Origin: Candidatus Tayloriibacteriota bacterium
Lineage (GTDB): Bacteria > Patescibacteriota > Minisyncoccia > Phycocordibacterales > SIBU01
Assembly (NCBI GenBank): GCA_009695005.1
Contig: SIBU01000005.1
Location: 1-48,627, forward strand
DNA: 48,627 bases
Reading direction: 5' to 3'
A program made the position numbers and the translations under genes. Below are positions 17,148 to 25,810 of this stretch, in pieces. The notes below the pieces were generated by a model. That model was not told where the DNA came from and did no database searches. It saw nothing but the letters and a program-made list of their open reading frames with translations. Each line of letters starts with the position of its first letter. Within the stretch, counting starts at the first letter, position 1.

Positions 17148-17474
17148 CTATAACCCTAATAATATTTTCAATTTTTTATCGACATCCTTAATAAAAACTG
17201 CCTCTACCATGCCGAGCTCACCAAGTATGATTTTCTTTTGCAAGGTTGCAAGGTGGTCAAGCTTAATTATCGAATCGACAACAAGTCCGTTCTGTTTTGA
17301 AAAGACGACCGGCACATCAAATTCATATGACTTCTCTCTCTGTGTTGAGGTGATAAACGCGACGACACAATTTTCACCTTTCAGGGAACTAAAAAGTATC
17401 AATGCAGGTCTTACTTTTTGGCCGGACAAATCGGTAAACGGAAAAGGAACAAGTACAATTACTCCCTTACGCAT
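17148..17474 (-). CDS. MazF/PemK-type toxin
   Basis: KGVIVLVPFPFTDLSGQKVRPALIL signature; overlaps the antitoxin ORF end. Confidence 0.85.
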   Translation of the reverse strand: MRKGVIVLVPFPFTDLSGQKVRPALILFSSLKGENCVVAFITSTQREKSYEFDVPVVFSKQNGLVVDSIIKLDHLATLQKKIILGELGMVEAVFIKDVDKKLKILLGL

Positions 17475-18486: not shown

Positions 18487-21240
18487 TTATTTCTGATACT
18501 TCTTCATTATCTCCCCCTCCACCTCACTTCGATCTCGGCCAAATTTAAGATATGAAAGTTCTTTCAAGTTCGCAATGATGTCCTTGTTACCTGGTGGTGG
18601 TGCCATAGTTTCAATATTGAAAGGCTTCACAGGACTACCGTTGACCAAAAGTTTGAGATAGGCGTTGCGGTTGTCCAAATTGACAATGTCATGCTCGGTA
18701 AACACCGGCTCAAGCTGCTTCGCCAAAAATTCTGCATCCTCTGAACCGACTCGGAACACCGCAAGAGAACCAACGTTACCGAACACAGCATCGCGAATCT
18801 TTTCTTCAAGTTGCTTAATAAATTGGTGAGCAACATGAAGAGAAAGTTTGTACTTGCGTGCCTCCGAAAGAATCGTTGAGATTGAGTCGGTGGTAATGTT
18901 CTGGAACTCATCGATATAGAGATAAAATGCCGGTAAGTCCTTACCATAGGAATCAACACGAGAAAGAGCGGCCATCAAAATTTTACCGACAAGAATAAGC
19001 CCAATCAAGTTTGCGTTTATATCACCAAGCCTTCCCTTAGCCAAATTGACCAGGAGAATTTTCTTACTGTCCATAATCTCGCGAAAATTGAAACTGGATT
19101 GCTCCTGAGCAATAATGGGCCGCATGATATCGTTTGCCAAAAAGTTATCGAACTTTGAAACGATGTACGGCACAATATTTGCAAGCGACGCTTCCCCACC
19201 TGCCTTATCCGCCACCTCACGCCAAAACTGAACAACAATAGGGTTTTTACATTTCGAAAGTTTCATTTCTCGAAATGTTTTGTTGGCTAGCACTCTTGAA
19301 ACATCTAAAAGTGTATTTCCCGTAGTAGGATCTTCGATAGTCAAAAGAACCGCATTTCTAAAATACTGCTCAAACATCGGACCACCTGCGGTTTTCATAT
19401 CAAACAACTTATTGAAAATCGAAAGTAACTCATTTACCACAAACGTCTTCTGCTCTGGGAATCGGACGTCGTATTCGAGCATATTGAGCGCCATAGGGCG
19501 CGCGGTATAAGATGGATCAAAATAAATCAAATCCTCATATCTTTCAGGAGGGATGGAGGCCAAGATATCTTGAATGTCGGCTCCGTGCGGATCAATCATG
19601 CACACACCTTCACCGTTTTGAATATCCTGAACAATCATATTTTTAAGAAGTGTAGTCTTACCGGTTCCGGTCTGACCAATGACATAAAAGTGTCGAAGAC
19701 GATCTTCTTTATTCATAAACACCTTTGTCTCGGTTGTGCGATTACGATTTACGCCAAGAAGAACACCTTGCTGAGGTAAATCAATCGGCGCGGCTGCGCT
19801 TCCGGCCTTGGCACTTTTAAGTTGTGGGGAAGATTGAATACGACTAGATGGAAAATGCATCATGGTGGTTACTTCTTTTATATTCAAAGGTATAGCTTCA
19901 TCTTCTTCAAAAATTCTAAAAGAGTAATCGTGAAGCAAACGCTTAAATTTTCTACCCCCAAAAAATCTCTCGAATTTCAATTTATTGCCATGGGTATTCT
20001 CAAATTGGTTAAAAGCCGCCTCCAGATCACCCAAAATGGCCAGAGCAGAAGATTTGTCTTCTGCCGACGCAATCACCCTAATTGACACCAAAAGCATCGG
20101 GCTACTCACTTTATTTTTCACTTGCTCAATCGCCACATCATCTGTTTTTGAAGGCTCAGGATCATCTTTTTTCTTTTTAGTATCGGAATGACGCCCAGAC
20201 AAGGCGTCTTTAAAACCCTTTGCGAATTCTCCAAAAAAAGTCATTCGAATATCAGTTGCCCTCCTGACTGATACACCCTTCTGCAACTTCTTTAAAGCTT
20301 CCTGGTATTTTTCATGATACTTTTCCGGCGCAGTCCTGAAAACAAACTGGACCGCTGCACCTTGTCCATTTTTTTTTATTTTAGAAAAACTGTTAAGTAA
20401 AACATTTAACGGGTCGATTTCAAACTCATCGTAAACCTTAATCGGAAAAATACAGTTACGCGACGATTCGGCAAGAGAACCGACAGACACGCCAGTCTCA
20501 TTAAAAACATTGTAATCGTTTTTTGCCTCGCGGATTTTTGCATTATGAAAAATCGACAGTATTTGTTTTTCAAACAGTGGCCGTTTGGAATTCGGAACAG
20601 AAGCGTAAAAAATAAACTCCTCGCTACCGTTACTGTTGGCAATCTCAATTGAAAAAGATTGCTCGCTTGTGTCGGACTCGTGGGAAATACTGAGCATGCC
20701 TGCATAAAACTGTTCCATACCAGAAATAAGTTTTTTAAGCTCCTTCTCACCTTCCTCTTTGTTAATTTCGGGCAGAGTAATCTCATAAAGAGTGCTATTT
20801 AGAGCTTTGCCGAGCAGGTTTTTTTCATTTAGTCCTTTAACGGCAAAACCCGCCTTTATGTACTGAACCAAAAAACGATGAAAATCGTCCTCAAGATGGA
20901 AATCATTGATTTTTTGAATGATACTTAAGGTATTTTTTATCCCCTTTTGCTCGAGGATGCCAATCAGCTCCTCGATTTTTTTATCATGCGTTTCCGGAGA
21001 CAGGTCCAAAACAATAGCGTCCTGATGAAAATGTCCCATTTCAAGACTTGGAGAAATTACCTCCTTGGCAGGTATTGCAGAATACTCCTTAATAACTTCT
21101 TTTACTGCCTTGTCCTGACTGATTTCGTTACCTCTGGAAATCGCTTCCGCCTGATGACGGGAAACTTCTTGACGCAAAAAATTCAGCTCTTCTTCGGGTG
21201 ACGAAAAACTTTTTTTCTCTCGGCTAAATTGTTGCTCCAT
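18487..21240 (-). CDS. TraD/VirD4-like (type IV secretion coupling-type) AAA ATPase
   Basis: VIGQTGTGKTTLLKNM Walker A, GVCMIDPHGAD, FYLYIDEFQNITT Walker B, HVAHQFIKQL. Confidence 0.85.
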   Translation of the reverse strand: MEQQFSREKKSFSSPEEELNFLRQEVSRHQAEAISRGNEISQDKAVKEVIKEYSAIPAKEVISPSLEMGHFHQDAIVLDLSPETHDKKIEELIGILEQKGIKNTLSIIQKINDFHLEDDFHRFLVQYIKAGFAVKGLNEKNLLGKALNSTLYEITLPEINKEEGEKELKKLISGMEQFYAGMLSISHESDTSEQSFSIEIANSNGSEEFIFYASVPNSKRPLFEKQILSIFHNAKIREAKNDYNVFNETGVSVGSLAESSRNCIFPIKVYDEFEIDPLNVLLNSFSKIKKNGQGAAVQFVFRTAPEKYHEKYQEALKKLQKGVSVRRATDIRMTFFGEFAKGFKDALSGRHSDTKKKKDDPEPSKTDDVAIEQVKNKVSSPMLLVSIRVIASAEDKSSALAILGDLEAAFNQFENTHGNKLKFERFFGGRKFKRLLHDYSFRIFEEDEAIPLNIKEVTTMMHFPSSRIQSSPQLKSAKAGSAAAPIDLPQQGVLLGVNRNRTTETKVFMNKEDRLRHFYVIGQTGTGKTTLLKNMIVQDIQNGEGVCMIDPHGADIQDILASIPPERYEDLIYFDPSYTARPMALNMLEYDVRFPEQKTFVVNELLSIFNKLFDMKTAGGPMFEQYFRNAVLLTIEDPTTGNTLLDVSRVLANKTFREMKLSKCKNPIVVQFWREVADKAGGEASLANIVPYIVSKFDNFLANDIMRPIIAQEQSSFNFREIMDSKKILLVNLAKGRLGDINANLIGLILVGKILMAALSRVDSYGKDLPAFYLYIDEFQNITTDSISTILSEARKYKLSLHVAHQFIKQLEEKIRDAVFGNVGSLAVFRVGSEDAEFLAKQLEPVFTEHDIVNLDNRNAYLKLLVNGSPVKPFNIETMAPPPGNKDIIANLKELSYLKFGRDRSEVEGEIMKKYQK

Positions 21241-21306: not shown

Positions 21307-22242
21307 TTACTTGCCTGGACGCCTCCCTTTTGATTCTGGTCTTGGCCCATTGTGATTGTCCCTTGATCCGCCCGGCCCTTTGGAGACTCCTCCGATTCCA
21401 AACGTAATAGTCTGAGATAGTTGAGGACCTGGAAAAATTTTTACTTTATGTACGACAGGGGCAGAATCAAAACCACCAACAACCTGACTGCTGTATCCAA
21501 TAGTTTGAGTTACAGCAGGTATTACCCTTATGCCTGGTTGCTGATTTGCTACCTCCACCTGAGGAACGGTGCTTTGATTAAAATTAGTAGCAGCTTGGAC
21601 AGAATAACCCGGTGTTTTCAATGCTTGAGATTCTGCTTGGGCTCGTTCCTCAAGCCATTTTCTAGCCTTTGCGGCATTTTCAAAATCTTTTTCAGTTGTT
21701 GGTTTCCACACACCAGCTTCTTCACCATACACAAACTTATTTGTACTAGCAGGCTGAGCCTCGGCTTGAAAAATCGGAACTTTATTCACTTGAGTCCCTG
21801 ATGGCACTTTATCACCAACCTTATAAATAGGTACACCTCCTGAACTATTTTTTGAGTGCGCCTTAACATCTTCCGCATGAAGCTCCTCACCTCCAATCAA
21901 ACCCAGAGTTGCAAGTCCTAAAACTGCCCACCTTCTAAATCTTGTTAGAAGAGTTTTATTTATCCTTTTACTTTCGAAAGATCCACTTTGCAAATCATTC
22001 TGCAGTGGTATAAATTCTTTCTCTGGTGGATAAAGAGGTACAAAACCTTTTTCCTTCAAATTTTTACGAACATTTCCAAGCAAAAGATCATCAACCTCTG
22101 ACTGGCCGACTAAACCTGACTCAGACTCCGCCTCAACCTCCTTTATTTGATTTAACGGTAAAACCTCTAATGGGATTTTCACTTCCTCAATCACTTCTCG
22201 AGCACCTGAATCAAAAGGTGAGACTTCCGATGAATTTTTCAT
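21307..22242 (-). CDS. Hypothetical protein with one internal TM segment
   Basis: 311-aa ORF; RFRRWAVLGLATLGLIGG; extended P/G/Q-rich C-terminus. Confidence 0.65.
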   Translation of the reverse strand: MKNSSEVSPFDSGAREVIEEVKIPLEVLPLNQIKEVEAESESGLVGQSEVDDLLLGNVRKNLKEKGFVPLYPPEKEFIPLQNDLQSGSFESKRINKTLLTRFRRWAVLGLATLGLIGGEELHAEDVKAHSKNSSGGVPIYKVGDKVPSGTQVNKVPIFQAEAQPASTNKFVYGEEAGVWKPTTEKDFENAAKARKWLEERAQAESQALKTPGYSVQAATNFNQSTVPQVEVANQQPGIRVIPAVTQTIGYSSQVVGGFDSAPVVHKVKIFPGPQLSQTITFGIGGVSKGPGGSRDNHNGPRPESKGRRPGK

Positions 22243-22284
22243 ATTACTAATATGATTATGAATATAGCATTAGAATATCACTAT

Positions 22285-22364
22285 TTGGTCAAAACTTCAG
22301 CCCCTCCTTCGGTTATGAGGATGGTTTTCTTGAAATGAGCGTTAGTTTAGCGTCTGCTTTGCGG
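22285..22364 (-). pseudogene. Degenerate remnant of the map 3' end
   Basis: About 80 nt near-identical to 25044-25124 (first ~46 nt identical), encodes ..AHFKKTILITEGGAEVLTK*, frameshifted upstream. Confidence 0.85.
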
Positions 22365-22421
22365 CATAAGTAGTCATTTACGATTAAAAGAACCCTCCTC
22401 TCGTCGCACAAAAAAAGAAAA

Positions 22422-22748
22422 TTATTTCGAGGATAGTGACAACCTTACCTTAGCTAAATTATACTTCTCATCAAAATTTTTACGCATCTCATCAAGTTTT
22501 TTCCACTCCCGCACCGTTTCCTCAAGAGACTGTTTGTAGTGAGCCAAAATATTATTCGTGACATCAAGATAAGCTTCCGCTATCGCAACATGGACCGCCC
22601 CAACTTCAGATTTTGAAAGCGGAGTTTGCCTGATATCAGCAATCAAGTCATCAATATTATTCCAATCAGCCACATCGCCCTCAACTTTATTTTTTGACTC
22701 TTTTTTACCAACAGGACTTATCGTCTTTATGTGATTATTTCTCTTCAT
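22422..22748 (-). CDS. Hypothetical small helical protein
   Basis: Start re-assigned to ATG 22748 (MKRNNHIKTISPVG), abutting the upstream gene stop. Confidence 0.6.
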   Translation of the reverse strand: MKRNNHIKTISPVGKKESKNKVEGDVADWNNIDDLIADIRQTPLSKSEVGAVHVAIAEAYLDVTNNILAHYKQSLEETVREWKKLDEMRKNFDEKYNLAKVRLSLSSK

Positions 22749-22749
22749 A

Positions 22750-25029
22750 TTATTTCTCTTGAACAATCGCCCTTTTCTGCTCCCCGACAAGAGCCTCCAA
22801 ATGAATCGCCTTCTGACGGGATTCTTGAGCTTGTTTTTTACCACTAATAGTTAATATATCAAATTTTACTTTGCTAATAACCCCTAACTCTTTCTCGAGT
22901 TTCATGACTATTAAACCCCTAACCTCCTCTCGCGATTTTGAACCCAATTTCTCCTTGGCAGTCAGCTTATCTAAGGCCTTCTGTAGGGTGCCAAATCGTC
23001 CTGAAGATAGCGCCATTGAGTGGCTAATGGCCTTTTCTACATCTCGTTCTATCCCACTATCCAGAGCCGTATCCAACCATTGTTTTAAAACACCTAAATC
23101 AACCGTCCCAGGCTCATCAAGATAATCTACACCTTTATCTAAACTTGCCTGAACAGCCCGCTCAAAAAGAGTGTGTGCCTCATCAATTTTTTCAGTATTC
23201 TCTGAACCACTTTTCACAGCAACAGTAATCTTTTCTCTAACCTTTGCACGAGCCAAACCGACGAGTTTTGCTTTCAATTCACTGTCTGCAAAAAGTTCAA
23301 TTTTCCCAGCATCTAATTTTCTACAAACTTCCACTCTTCTTGCCTCAAATTCCGCCATCTTCAGATTAGTGTTTTCAAAATTTTTAATTTCTTCAGCAAT
23401 CTGGATCTCAATCAGATTCAATCCAGTCCTAAGTTCCTTAGACGAAAGACCCTGACCAAAGGTGCTGATAAGCTCCAACCCACTCGAACGTGCCATTGTT
23501 TCTCTAACTTCTGAACGAATTCTTGCCTTTTCCGCGCTTGCCTCAGAACCGAAAAGAGCCGCGACGGAGTGCGTCCACCCAGCCCCAGTCCAAAAATCAT
23601 TTGTATCCAAAGCAACCTGAAAATTTCTTTGCCTTGCTCTAAGACATTGAACTGCCTGGTCATGTGCCTCTTGAGTTAGACAAGCCTTAAGAGCCGCTAC
23701 TTGGCTTTCCAATAAAGCAACCGAGTCTGAAAGTTCCTTGTTGGTTTTTAACTTCTCGCCGAGAACCCGTAGTGCTTCTGGATTATTATGTGCTTGTCGT
23801 TCTATATGCTCGCGTACAGCCTTCTTCCCTTCCCCATCAAGAGAAAGGCCTATATCCTTCGTAATGGCTTCCGCATACAAAGCGTGTACGCTATTCGCCA
23901 CAGCGTCTTTGGTCGCAAATACCTCAAACAATTTACGGACTGCTTCTTTGTCCTCCATATCTACATTTTTGCCAAACTTTTCCGACTCGATGATAAACGA
24001 ATCAAATCCTGGCACATCCATCGCCTTTCCAATATCAAAACCTGCCGGGTCTTCTAGGACAGCTTGGACAATTTCAACACTTGGTGAACTTATTATCTGA
24101 ATCGGCTGCTCGGTAGCTACTTTAGAAGCTTCAGGACGAGGAGGCGCATCAGGAGCAGGAGTTGATTTAGAATCAACTTTTGTTAGATACTCAACATAAA
24201 CCGAATGATTTTCCCTCATGCCAGGATCAACAGGATAAATTGGGTCATCCTCAAATCTCGCGGCTACTTTGCCATCACCGTCTTCCCAAAACGCAATAAT
24301 TTTCTTAGGACTTTTCCAAACAGGTAAACCTCCATTCTCAAGCACCATCACCTCATCCCCAACATTCAACCCCCTTCTCCTTTCCAGAGAAATTTCAGTT
24401 TTATTTTTTTCCTCTTCATTGGCTGGTTTAAGTACGGTTTCTTCGGAAGCCTTGATGGACATCAGGTATTCGATATACCCCTCAAATATTGTTACAGCTT
24501 TCAAATTAGCAATTCGCTCATCAATTTTCTTTAGGCTGTTTACAAAACTTTGTATTAAAATTGCCTTTTGGCCAGACTTCAATTTGCCGAAGTCGTCATT
24601 ATCAATATAAGCCAAATTCTTCTGAAGAGTATCCGCAACATCTTTACCTGGGTGCTTGCCAGATTCAAATGAAACCTCACTTAACTTCGAAATCTTAACA
24701 ATTAACTCCTGCATAGTTTCTGTCTCAGTAAGCTCGAGAGTCTCTGCATTATCAGTATTCCTATCAATCTTGCTTTCCATTAAAGTTCCAACTCCTTGAT
24801 TAAGTTGAAGTGCTTCTTCAAGACGTTTTATATCCGGTAAACCGGCAATTTTTGCATCAATGACTTCATCTACACTCAAATTATTAGGCAATTTTAATCC
24901 TTCAGCTGATGTGGGAACCTGGAGGTTAGGGTTTTCACCAACAATTTCCAACCTCTTCTCACGAAAAGCATCACTGACTTCATTTACACTTGGATTATTA
25001 TCAACTTTTTCAGAACTTTCCATGTGCAT
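22750..25029 (-). CDS. Large helical/coiled-coil hypothetical protein
   Basis: 759-aa uninterrupted ORF, highly charged. Confidence 0.75.
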   Translation of the reverse strand: MHMESSEKVDNNPSVNEVSDAFREKRLEIVGENPNLQVPTSAEGLKLPNNLSVDEVIDAKIAGLPDIKRLEEALQLNQGVGTLMESKIDRNTDNAETLELTETETMQELIVKISKLSEVSFESGKHPGKDVADTLQKNLAYIDNDDFGKLKSGQKAILIQSFVNSLKKIDERIANLKAVTIFEGYIEYLMSIKASEETVLKPANEEEKNKTEISLERRRGLNVGDEVMVLENGGLPVWKSPKKIIAFWEDGDGKVAARFEDDPIYPVDPGMRENHSVYVEYLTKVDSKSTPAPDAPPRPEASKVATEQPIQIISSPSVEIVQAVLEDPAGFDIGKAMDVPGFDSFIIESEKFGKNVDMEDKEAVRKLFEVFATKDAVANSVHALYAEAITKDIGLSLDGEGKKAVREHIERQAHNNPEALRVLGEKLKTNKELSDSVALLESQVAALKACLTQEAHDQAVQCLRARQRNFQVALDTNDFWTGAGWTHSVAALFGSEASAEKARIRSEVRETMARSSGLELISTFGQGLSSKELRTGLNLIEIQIAEEIKNFENTNLKMAEFEARRVEVCRKLDAGKIELFADSELKAKLVGLARAKVREKITVAVKSGSENTEKIDEAHTLFERAVQASLDKGVDYLDEPGTVDLGVLKQWLDTALDSGIERDVEKAISHSMALSSGRFGTLQKALDKLTAKEKLGSKSREEVRGLIVMKLEKELGVISKVKFDILTISGKKQAQESRQKAIHLEALVGEQKRAIVQEK

Positions 25030-25036
25030 AATGTTA

Positions 25037-25810
25037 TCACAACTTGGTCAAAACTTCAGCCCCTCCTTCGGTTATGAGGATGGTTTTCTCGAAATGGGCG
25101 CTACGTTTAGCATCTGCTGTGCGGTAGGTATAACCATCCGCGTCCAAAATAACGTTTTTTGTGCCCTCATTTACCATAGGCTCTATAGCAATCACCATAC
25201 CAGGCTTTAGAACTGGGCCTTGATTCTTTTTGCCATAATTCGGAACGTAAGGATCTTCATGGACCTTGTATCCAACGCCGTGACCAGCAAGCTCTTCAAC
25301 AATACCAAAACTGTGAGGTCTAATATAAGATTCTATAGCGTAACTAATATCCCCCACCTTACCCCCACCTCGAGCAGCCTTAATACCGACATCAAGAGCT
25401 TCCATGGTAACTTTTAAAAGTTTAACCGCAATCTCATCAACTTTTCCGACAGCCACAGTGGTTGCCATATCGGTGTATAAACCATTATGAATAAGCCCCA
25501 TATCTAAAGATACGATGTCACCTTCCTTCAAAACCTTTTCGCTTTCGTTTGGAATGCCATGCACAACTTCGTCATTTACAGAAACACAAAGAGACGCCGG
25601 ATAAGGACGCAGTGCGCCATAAGGTTTGTAGTTAAAAAAAGCAGATTTGTCTCCTCCCGCAGCGACAAGCTTTTCTGCTAAGGAATTGAGTTCGGCTGCG
25701 GTTCGCCCTGGGCGAACCGCAGCTTCTAGTTCGCGCAAAATTTTTGCCAGCCTCTTTCCCCCCTCCCTTAAAATTTTTATTTCCGATTCTGTTTTGATAG
25801 TAATATTCAT
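25037..25810 (-). CDS. map: Methionine aminopeptidase type I
   Basis: SVNDEVVHGIP, SLDMGLIHNGLYTDMATTVAVG, ELAGHGVGYKVHEDPYVPN, PGMVIAIEPMVNEG. Confidence 0.96.
   Translation of the reverse strand: MNITIKTESEIKILREGGKRLAKILRELEAAVRPGRTAAELNSLAEKLVAAGGDKSAFFNYKPYGALRPYPASLCVSVNDEVVHGIPNESEKVLKEGDIVSLDMGLIHNGLYTDMATTVAVGKVDEIAVKLLKVTMEALDVGIKAARGGGKVGDISYAIESYIRPHSFGIVEELAGHGVGYKVHEDPYVPNYGKKNQGPVLKPGMVIAIEPMVNEGTKNVILDADGYTYRTADAKRSAHFEKTILITEGGAEVLTKL

Follow-up and report, generated by a model that had tools for sequence, protein, structure and literature searches.

A duplicated map 3' end in a variable gene slot of a Candidatus Tayloriibacteriota genome

Why should a genome carry, two genes beyond an intact map gene, a second and partly decayed copy of that gene's 3' end? 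The question is raised by a stretch of 48,627 nucleotides from a Candidatus Tayloriibacteriota bacterium (contig SIBU01000005.1 of GCA_009695005.1), referred to here as the window, which is contig C12 of a draft genome, G000, of 794 kb in 24 contigs. The closest relatives of this genome in our collection are labelled Candidatus Taylorbacteria and related Parcubacteria. Patescibacteria have small genomes and fast-changing accessory genes, and little is established about how genes enter them when no mobile element is evident. Each gene-tail copy is a physical trace of one such gain.

Two copies of one gene end

Read along the minus strand, the genes of the locus run in the order secY, adk-like, a 229-aa gene, map, the 759-aa gene, the 108-aa gene, the map copy, the 311-aa gene, a 917-aa ATPase gene, a 212-aa gene, a PemK/MazF toxin gene and ndk (Table 1). 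The 759-aa and 108-aa genes thus lie between the two map copies, and the 311-aa gene follows the remnant. A local BLAST search within the window aligns 22276-22364 with 25035-25124 in direct orientation (90 columns, 91.1% identity, E = 2e-30), and this match includes an exact block of 46 nt of the map tail (22285-22330 = 25044-25089). Under optimal alignment the copy reaches a length of about 118 nt, with 22276-22393 paired to 25035-25153. The 5' extension is far more decayed, with 22/40 identities in a fixed register, a score that none of 20,000 shuffles reaches. A preliminary description of this DNA had reported that 22285-22364 repeats 25044-25124 with some 46 identical nucleotides, and that the two genes lie in between; its coordinates, orientation and exact block all stand. 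So does the peptide that it gave for the remnant, which ends in ...AHFKKTILITEGGAEVLTK followed by a stop codon; a single TTG-to-TAG change terminates the remnant one codon ahead of the stop of the intact gene.

Both copies share the same endpoint, right past the stop codon and within an extended -10-like motif. A whole-genome DNA search finds map-tail DNA at just two places in G000, which amounts to a single extra copy and rules out a dispersed intergenic repeat family as its source. The two repeats occupy the same locus in the same orientation and are locus-specific, as expected of a tandem duplication. They are also of the size expected of a direct target duplication of about 100 nt flanking genes (90 nt at 91%, or about 118 nt with the decayed part). 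Simple uniform decay does not account for the identity gradient, from 46 identical nucleotides to about 55% further upstream; the gradient suggests gene conversion or selection at a later stage. We also considered that CGAGAGGAG, a stretch between the 108-aa gene and the map copy that is common to the related genome G002, might be a remnant of the ATPase start or of its ribosome-binding site; we abandoned this reading, since in the alignment with map those nucleotides are in register.

Table 1. Features of the map-ATPase locus and of the parallel MnmA/NrdR locus. Coordinates are those of the window unless a locus is named.
Feature	Coordinates	Strand	Evidence
917-aa TraG/VirD4/HerA-like ATPase, conserved right-hand neighbour of the slot	18487..21240	-	PF12696, PF01935, PF02534
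311-aa gene, orphan	21307..22242	-	no family or homologue match
-10-like motif AGTGATATTCT, end of map-tail copy, upstream of 311-aa gene	22272..22282	-	consensus match only
Degenerate second map 3' end; strong part 22276-22364, decayed part to ~22393	22276..22393	-	BLAST, extended alignment
108-aa gene, directly downstream of the 759 family	22422..22748	-	phmmer, profile
759-aa gene	22750..25029	-	alignment A1, order-wide search, gene order, AlphaFold model
Extended -10-like motif TGTGATAACAT, overlapping the map stop codon, 8 nt before the 759-aa gene	25031..25041	-	motif scan of map 3' ends, consensus match only
Duplicated map 3' end, homology with decay to ~25153	25035..25124	-	BLAST 91% over 90 nt, extended alignment
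map, type I methionyl aminopeptidase, intact, 256 aa from ATG at 25807 (alternative TTG start: 262 aa, to 25825)	25037..25807	-	TIGR00500 E=1.7e-82, PF00557 E=5.4e-44
MnmA/NrdR scar	L163:3650-5720 = G000 contig C18:23650-25720	174-aa ORF minus	tandem-duplication-type junction

A variable slot and its old occupants

The frame of map, ATPase gene and ndk is kept in relatives, and the distance from map to the ATPase gene ranges from 10 nt to more than 7 kb, with differing genes inside (46 map-ATPase loci listed). Judged by gene order, the map-to-ATPase interval is a variable gene slot. Two genomes of the same genus show what it may hold. In G002 two genes, first one of 1162 aa and then one of 105 aa, separate map from the ATPase gene. 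The larger product shares homology, at its end, with the second half of the 759-aa protein (E ~1e-87), and the 105-aa protein is a homologue of the 108-aa protein (phmmer E=1.4e-19). In G001 the order is map, 305, 397, 94, ATPase, with the same two families. Neither genome has a map copy. G003 has a short gap only, without the 759-108 pair.

The C-terminal half of the 759-aa protein (residues 313-759) belongs to an all-helical family that adjoins the ATPase in relatives. Its AlphaFold model (pLDDT 79.5) has no match among solved structures, with a best E of 0.14. A profile of this second half, built from alignment A1, finds matches in 22 of the 397 genomes of the order. In the loci that we fetched, the 108 family, as judged by profile, follows the 759 family directly in 15/15, and the pair adjoins the ATPase gene in 14/15 (11 upstream, 3 downstream). 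Because of this double adjacency, we regard the pair as an old two-gene companion of the ATPase and, on comparative gene order, as the ancestral content of the slot in the genus. A map-tail copy occurs in two of these 15 loci (L273, which is the same record as L054, and L278), where it is found around a toxin-antitoxin module instead.

These observations bear on the preliminary description, which had taken the 759-108 pair for cargo integrated at map. The pair is kept between map and the ATPase gene without a copy in G001 and G002, and it occurs without the map copy in most relatives examined. Conservation of the cargo in the absence of the remnant is what that description had named as refuting its reading. 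The pair as a mobile cassette is therefore rejected as a simple reading. The unusual element is the other one: the map copy and the 311-aa gene between the 108-aa gene and the ATPase gene are found in no relative examined and belong to the window genome only. The 311-aa protein, which by inspection has a predicted membrane segment at about residues 102-120, has no significant homologue in the 397 genomes of the order, nor as a slot gene elsewhere, and no family match in Pfam, PADLOC, NCBIfam or PHROGs.

Some features of the neighbourhood deserve mention in their own right. Many genomes of the order keep the ATPase gene in its place between map and ndk. The protein resembles VirD4/TraD coupling proteins, although its TraD-type NCBIfam matches fall below cut-off, and a second, more distant homologue is encoded elsewhere in the genomes examined. 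VirD4 homologues located far from virB4 have been reported (PMC12102498). The ATPase-ndk interval is a second variable slot, which holds toxin-antitoxin genes in relatives; in the window it contains, at 17148-17474, the PemK/MazF toxin gene and a small upstream ORF that is a candidate antitoxin gene, without a tail copy.

Tail copies at other loci

Tail copies in relatives were sought by a scan of gene 3' ends, and the toxins were identified with Pfam, except for the HepT of L040, which was recognised by eye from its similarity to other HepT proteins. The preliminary description had proposed a search of the genome for further copies of the two cargo genes flanked by gene 3'-end duplications. 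Similar tail copies do surround added genes in the window's own genome and in its relatives. VapB/VapC stands between map and a map tail at L054 and L278, and an antitoxin/PemK pair between secY and a secY tail at L122. MNT/HepT lies between the ATPase gene and an ATPase tail at L077, L053, L276 and L040 (where the MNT gene is not resolved); these four loci probably represent one old event. L053 also has GNAT/HicB/HicA between the ATPase gene and an ATPase tail, as well as an MBL-fold gene followed by an AbiEii pair on the other strand and then by a tail. In the toxin-antitoxin cases that lie on the same strand, the start of the tail copy falls within a range from 3 nt ahead of the toxin stop to 23 nt beyond it. 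We note separately that at L053:9959-12146, in the ATPase-ndk slot, the ATPase tail is copied twice, behind MNT/HepT and behind GNAT-HicB-HicA, which gives two stacked toxin-antitoxin modules.

The window genome itself holds two further tail copies, of MnmA (95%, 170 nt) and of an SPFH-like gene (97%, 158 nt). The MnmA case is the more instructive. In G003 and G035, MnmA and an NrdR-like gene lie about 10 nt apart, an empty site of the kind that insertion with long target duplication should leave in relatives. In G000 the order is instead MnmA, a 227-aa gene, an NrdR head fragment fused to an MnmA tail fragment, a 174-aa gene on the minus strand, and NrdR. The fragments are fused at a shared GACGGAAC, a clear microhomology, whereas the corresponding junction in the window is too decayed to read. 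With an NrdR head followed by an MnmA tail and a different gene in each interval, the arrangement has, from its sequence, a junction of the tandem-duplication type. This layout is what stacking two alternative contents of one slot would give. At L217 (G035 contig C10:10479-11585), the MnmA homologue is split into two ORFs by one in-frame TGA, which may reflect a frameshift, a pseudogene or a sequencing error. At L168:15830-17777 (G000 contig C21:75830-77777), the SPFH-like gene is followed by an insert and then by the copy of its last 158 nt; the insert ends in a truncated transposase-like ORF that by eye resembles IS30.

How common are such copies? They occur at 3/604 genes in G000 (711 kb) and at 1/357 in G001, and as controls at 0/391 genes in 400 kb of G005 and 0/263 in 300 kb of E. 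coli K-12, all of which are small numbers. A strong 3'-tail polarity is not upheld: across 126 loci we count 9 downstream tail copies and 5 upstream head copies (p = 0.42, not significant). Removal of dispersed or weak head matches leaves 9 against 1 (p = 0.02), with events that are not all independent, and the bias of tail over head copies is suggestive but not secure. Spaced repeats outside ORFs in G000 are direct in 19 cases and inverted in 4, some of them being dispersed families, tRNAs or terminators. A dispersed repeat family, with tRNA-like and terminator-like sequences included, accounts for most of the spaced repeats in G001 and for some in G000; a member of about 75 nt is repeated between genes at three places in G001 contig C2:41949-48855.

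Further repeat arrangements were seen. At L100:3016-5526 and L115:7076-9696, in the map/ATPase neighbourhood, a gene ends in a repeat pair and a reverse transcriptase gene lies downstream of it, which resembles a diversity-generating retroelement. Template and variable repeats of such an element were considered for the window and rejected; they fit the matches at L100 and L115. At L108:3451-4373, 40 nt from the tail of a RelE/ParE-like toxin gene recur (95%) beyond an ORF recognised by eye as an IS200-type transposase, and at L161:10180-10731 (G000 contig C16:30180-30731) a NUDIX hydrolase gene is closely flanked by two tRNA-like copies.

Origin of the scar and known systems

The second map copy is a map 3' end duplication that accompanied gene gain. 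We propose, with a probability of about one half, that it is the scar of two alternative slot contents stacked by one-sided or illegitimate recombination. Two versions of the locus, map-759-108-(ATPase) and map-311-(ATPase), would have been joined head to tail in series. Incoming DNA from a close relative would pair at one end only, in map, and its other end would be joined without homology; because of this asymmetry, the second content would have retained a short piece of the map 3' end at its front. It is likelier that the map tail with the 311-aa gene is the newcomer than that the 759-108 pair is, and the close likeness of the two map copies leaves donor and recipient indistinguishable. We infer both the stacking event and the uptake of DNA from a close relative by analogy; tandem duplications formed by transformation are documented in Streptococcus pneumoniae (PMC3784515). 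The preliminary description had suggested looking for relatives that lack 22370-25030 and in which map abuts the 311-aa gene. No genome with map directly before that gene was found, and the map-311 allele is hypothetical for that reason. Between the 108-aa gene and the map copy there is also no recognisable ATPase head fragment, which would be the counterpart of the NrdR head fragment.

The stacking proposal has to be weighed against accounts in which the flanked genes, rather than the 311-aa gene, moved. The 759-108 pair might have been lost from an ancestor with the order map-311-ATPase and then have re-entered by insertion with long target duplication, with some 90-120 nt of the map end being duplicated. 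The kind of event is known for restriction-modification genes in Helicobacter (PMC3874152), toxin-antitoxin modules of relatives show the same layout of host gene, insert and host tail copy, and G003 lacks the pair. We nonetheless consider this account rather unlikely. Since the pair is the ancestral ATPase companion in genus and order, re-entry needs loss and regain at the same place, and among close relatives no empty site lacking the flanked genes was found: G001 and G002 carry the pair without a copy, and G003 has neither the pair nor the 311-aa gene. A further account invokes an integrase, acting in trans or since lost, that would have inserted the segment site-specifically at the map 3' end and restored the target. 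This account would explain why the intact tail is proximal and the degenerate one distal in the same orientation, and why map tails are also duplicated around VapBC at L054 and L278. It is very improbable, given that the pair is conserved without the map copy, that Pfam, PADLOC, NCBIfam and PHROGs reveal no integrase or transposase in the segment or its neighbours, and that no attachment sequence is shared with other sites of the genome. The map tail occurs twice only and the other duplicated tails come from unrelated genes; the duplicated sequence differs from site to site, which speaks against a fixed attachment site. Of the two origins offered in the preliminary description, integration with restoration of the target thus loses ground, and tandem duplication with cargo is closer to the evidence. 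A broader account, which we regard as distinctly improbable, is that in this group of Patescibacteria small gene cassettes, chiefly toxin-antitoxin modules, are moved by an unrecognised process to gene 3' ends, where 40-170 nt of the host tail are copied behind them with the right boundary at or near the toxin stop, and that the window holds a non-toxin cassette handled likewise. Finally, the locus could be a chimera of two strains produced by metagenomic assembly. With 24 contigs the genome is a draft, and the structure does resemble two alleles in series, but the copies differ at many positions, the tail is decayed, and similar structures occur in independently assembled genomes, including the ATPase-MNT/HepT-tail arrangement common to several; we regard an artefact as scarcely credible.

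A different possibility is that the map 3' end was duplicated locally and selected as a portable promoter that now drives the 311-aa gene and perhaps the ATPase gene. In the window and in G002, L054 and L064, the stop codon of map falls within an extended -10-like motif (consensus match only). If the gene after map begins no more than about 50 nt away, a TGTGnTATAAT-like element is usually located at that stop codon and often overlaps it. Because this motif is so usual there, the map tail seems, on motif matches, to carry the promoter of the next gene, and the map copy may persist owing to a promoter for the gene downstream. In line with such selection, the motif is present at the end of both copies in the window, and L054 keeps it in both of its map-tail copies, directly before the start codon. 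The 46 identical nucleotides beside the stop, with a decayed part upstream, are also as expected if the stop-proximal end was selected or homogenised. On the other side, the motif scores are consensus matches only, the remnant has a weaker motif than the intact gene, the 311-aa gene has another possible -10 closer to its start, and the copy at L278 precedes a gene on the other strand. As an account of how the copy arose, local duplication for promoter use is improbable.

The scar merits a record as a member of a set of such traces in this lineage, several of which surround toxin-antitoxin modules. Since tail copies recur, mostly around addictive genes, and overlap promoter-like motifs, both a mode of gene gain and a constraint on landing sites become testable by sequence comparison.

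How does the locus compare with known systems? Integrative elements that restore a gene 3' end, such as islands at tRNA or guaA ends, likewise have an intact end on one side and a remnant on the other. Unlike them, the window has no integrase and no constant attachment site, and its insert consists of two conserved genes. The scar, a real recombination trace within a variable slot, belongs to the known kind called insertion with long target duplication, which restriction-modification genes exemplify (Nobusato et al., 2000; Furuta et al., 2010; both cited in PMC3874152). Shared with that kind are a direct target duplication of about 100 nt, the lack of a transposase and, often, selfish or addictive genes. 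In contrast to it, this clade duplicates mostly gene 3' tails, the inserts in relatives are mostly toxin-antitoxin modules, and in the window the 759-108 pair, as an ancestral neighbour, is not clearly an insert. A further comparison is with homology-facilitated illegitimate recombination in natural transformation (de Vries and Wackernagel, 2002; Prudhomme et al., 2002; cited in PMC3784515). One end is joined by homology and the other without, which can trap foreign DNA beside a conserved gene, as we infer here. To our knowledge, duplication of the anchor end is not its usual reported product. Merodiploids of Streptococcus pneumoniae likewise carry a tandem duplication, formed when the cell takes up DNA of its own or a closely related genome; those duplications span ~100-900 kb and are repeat-mediated (PMC3784515), whereas the ones described here measure tens to hundreds of nucleotides, with cargo between the copies.
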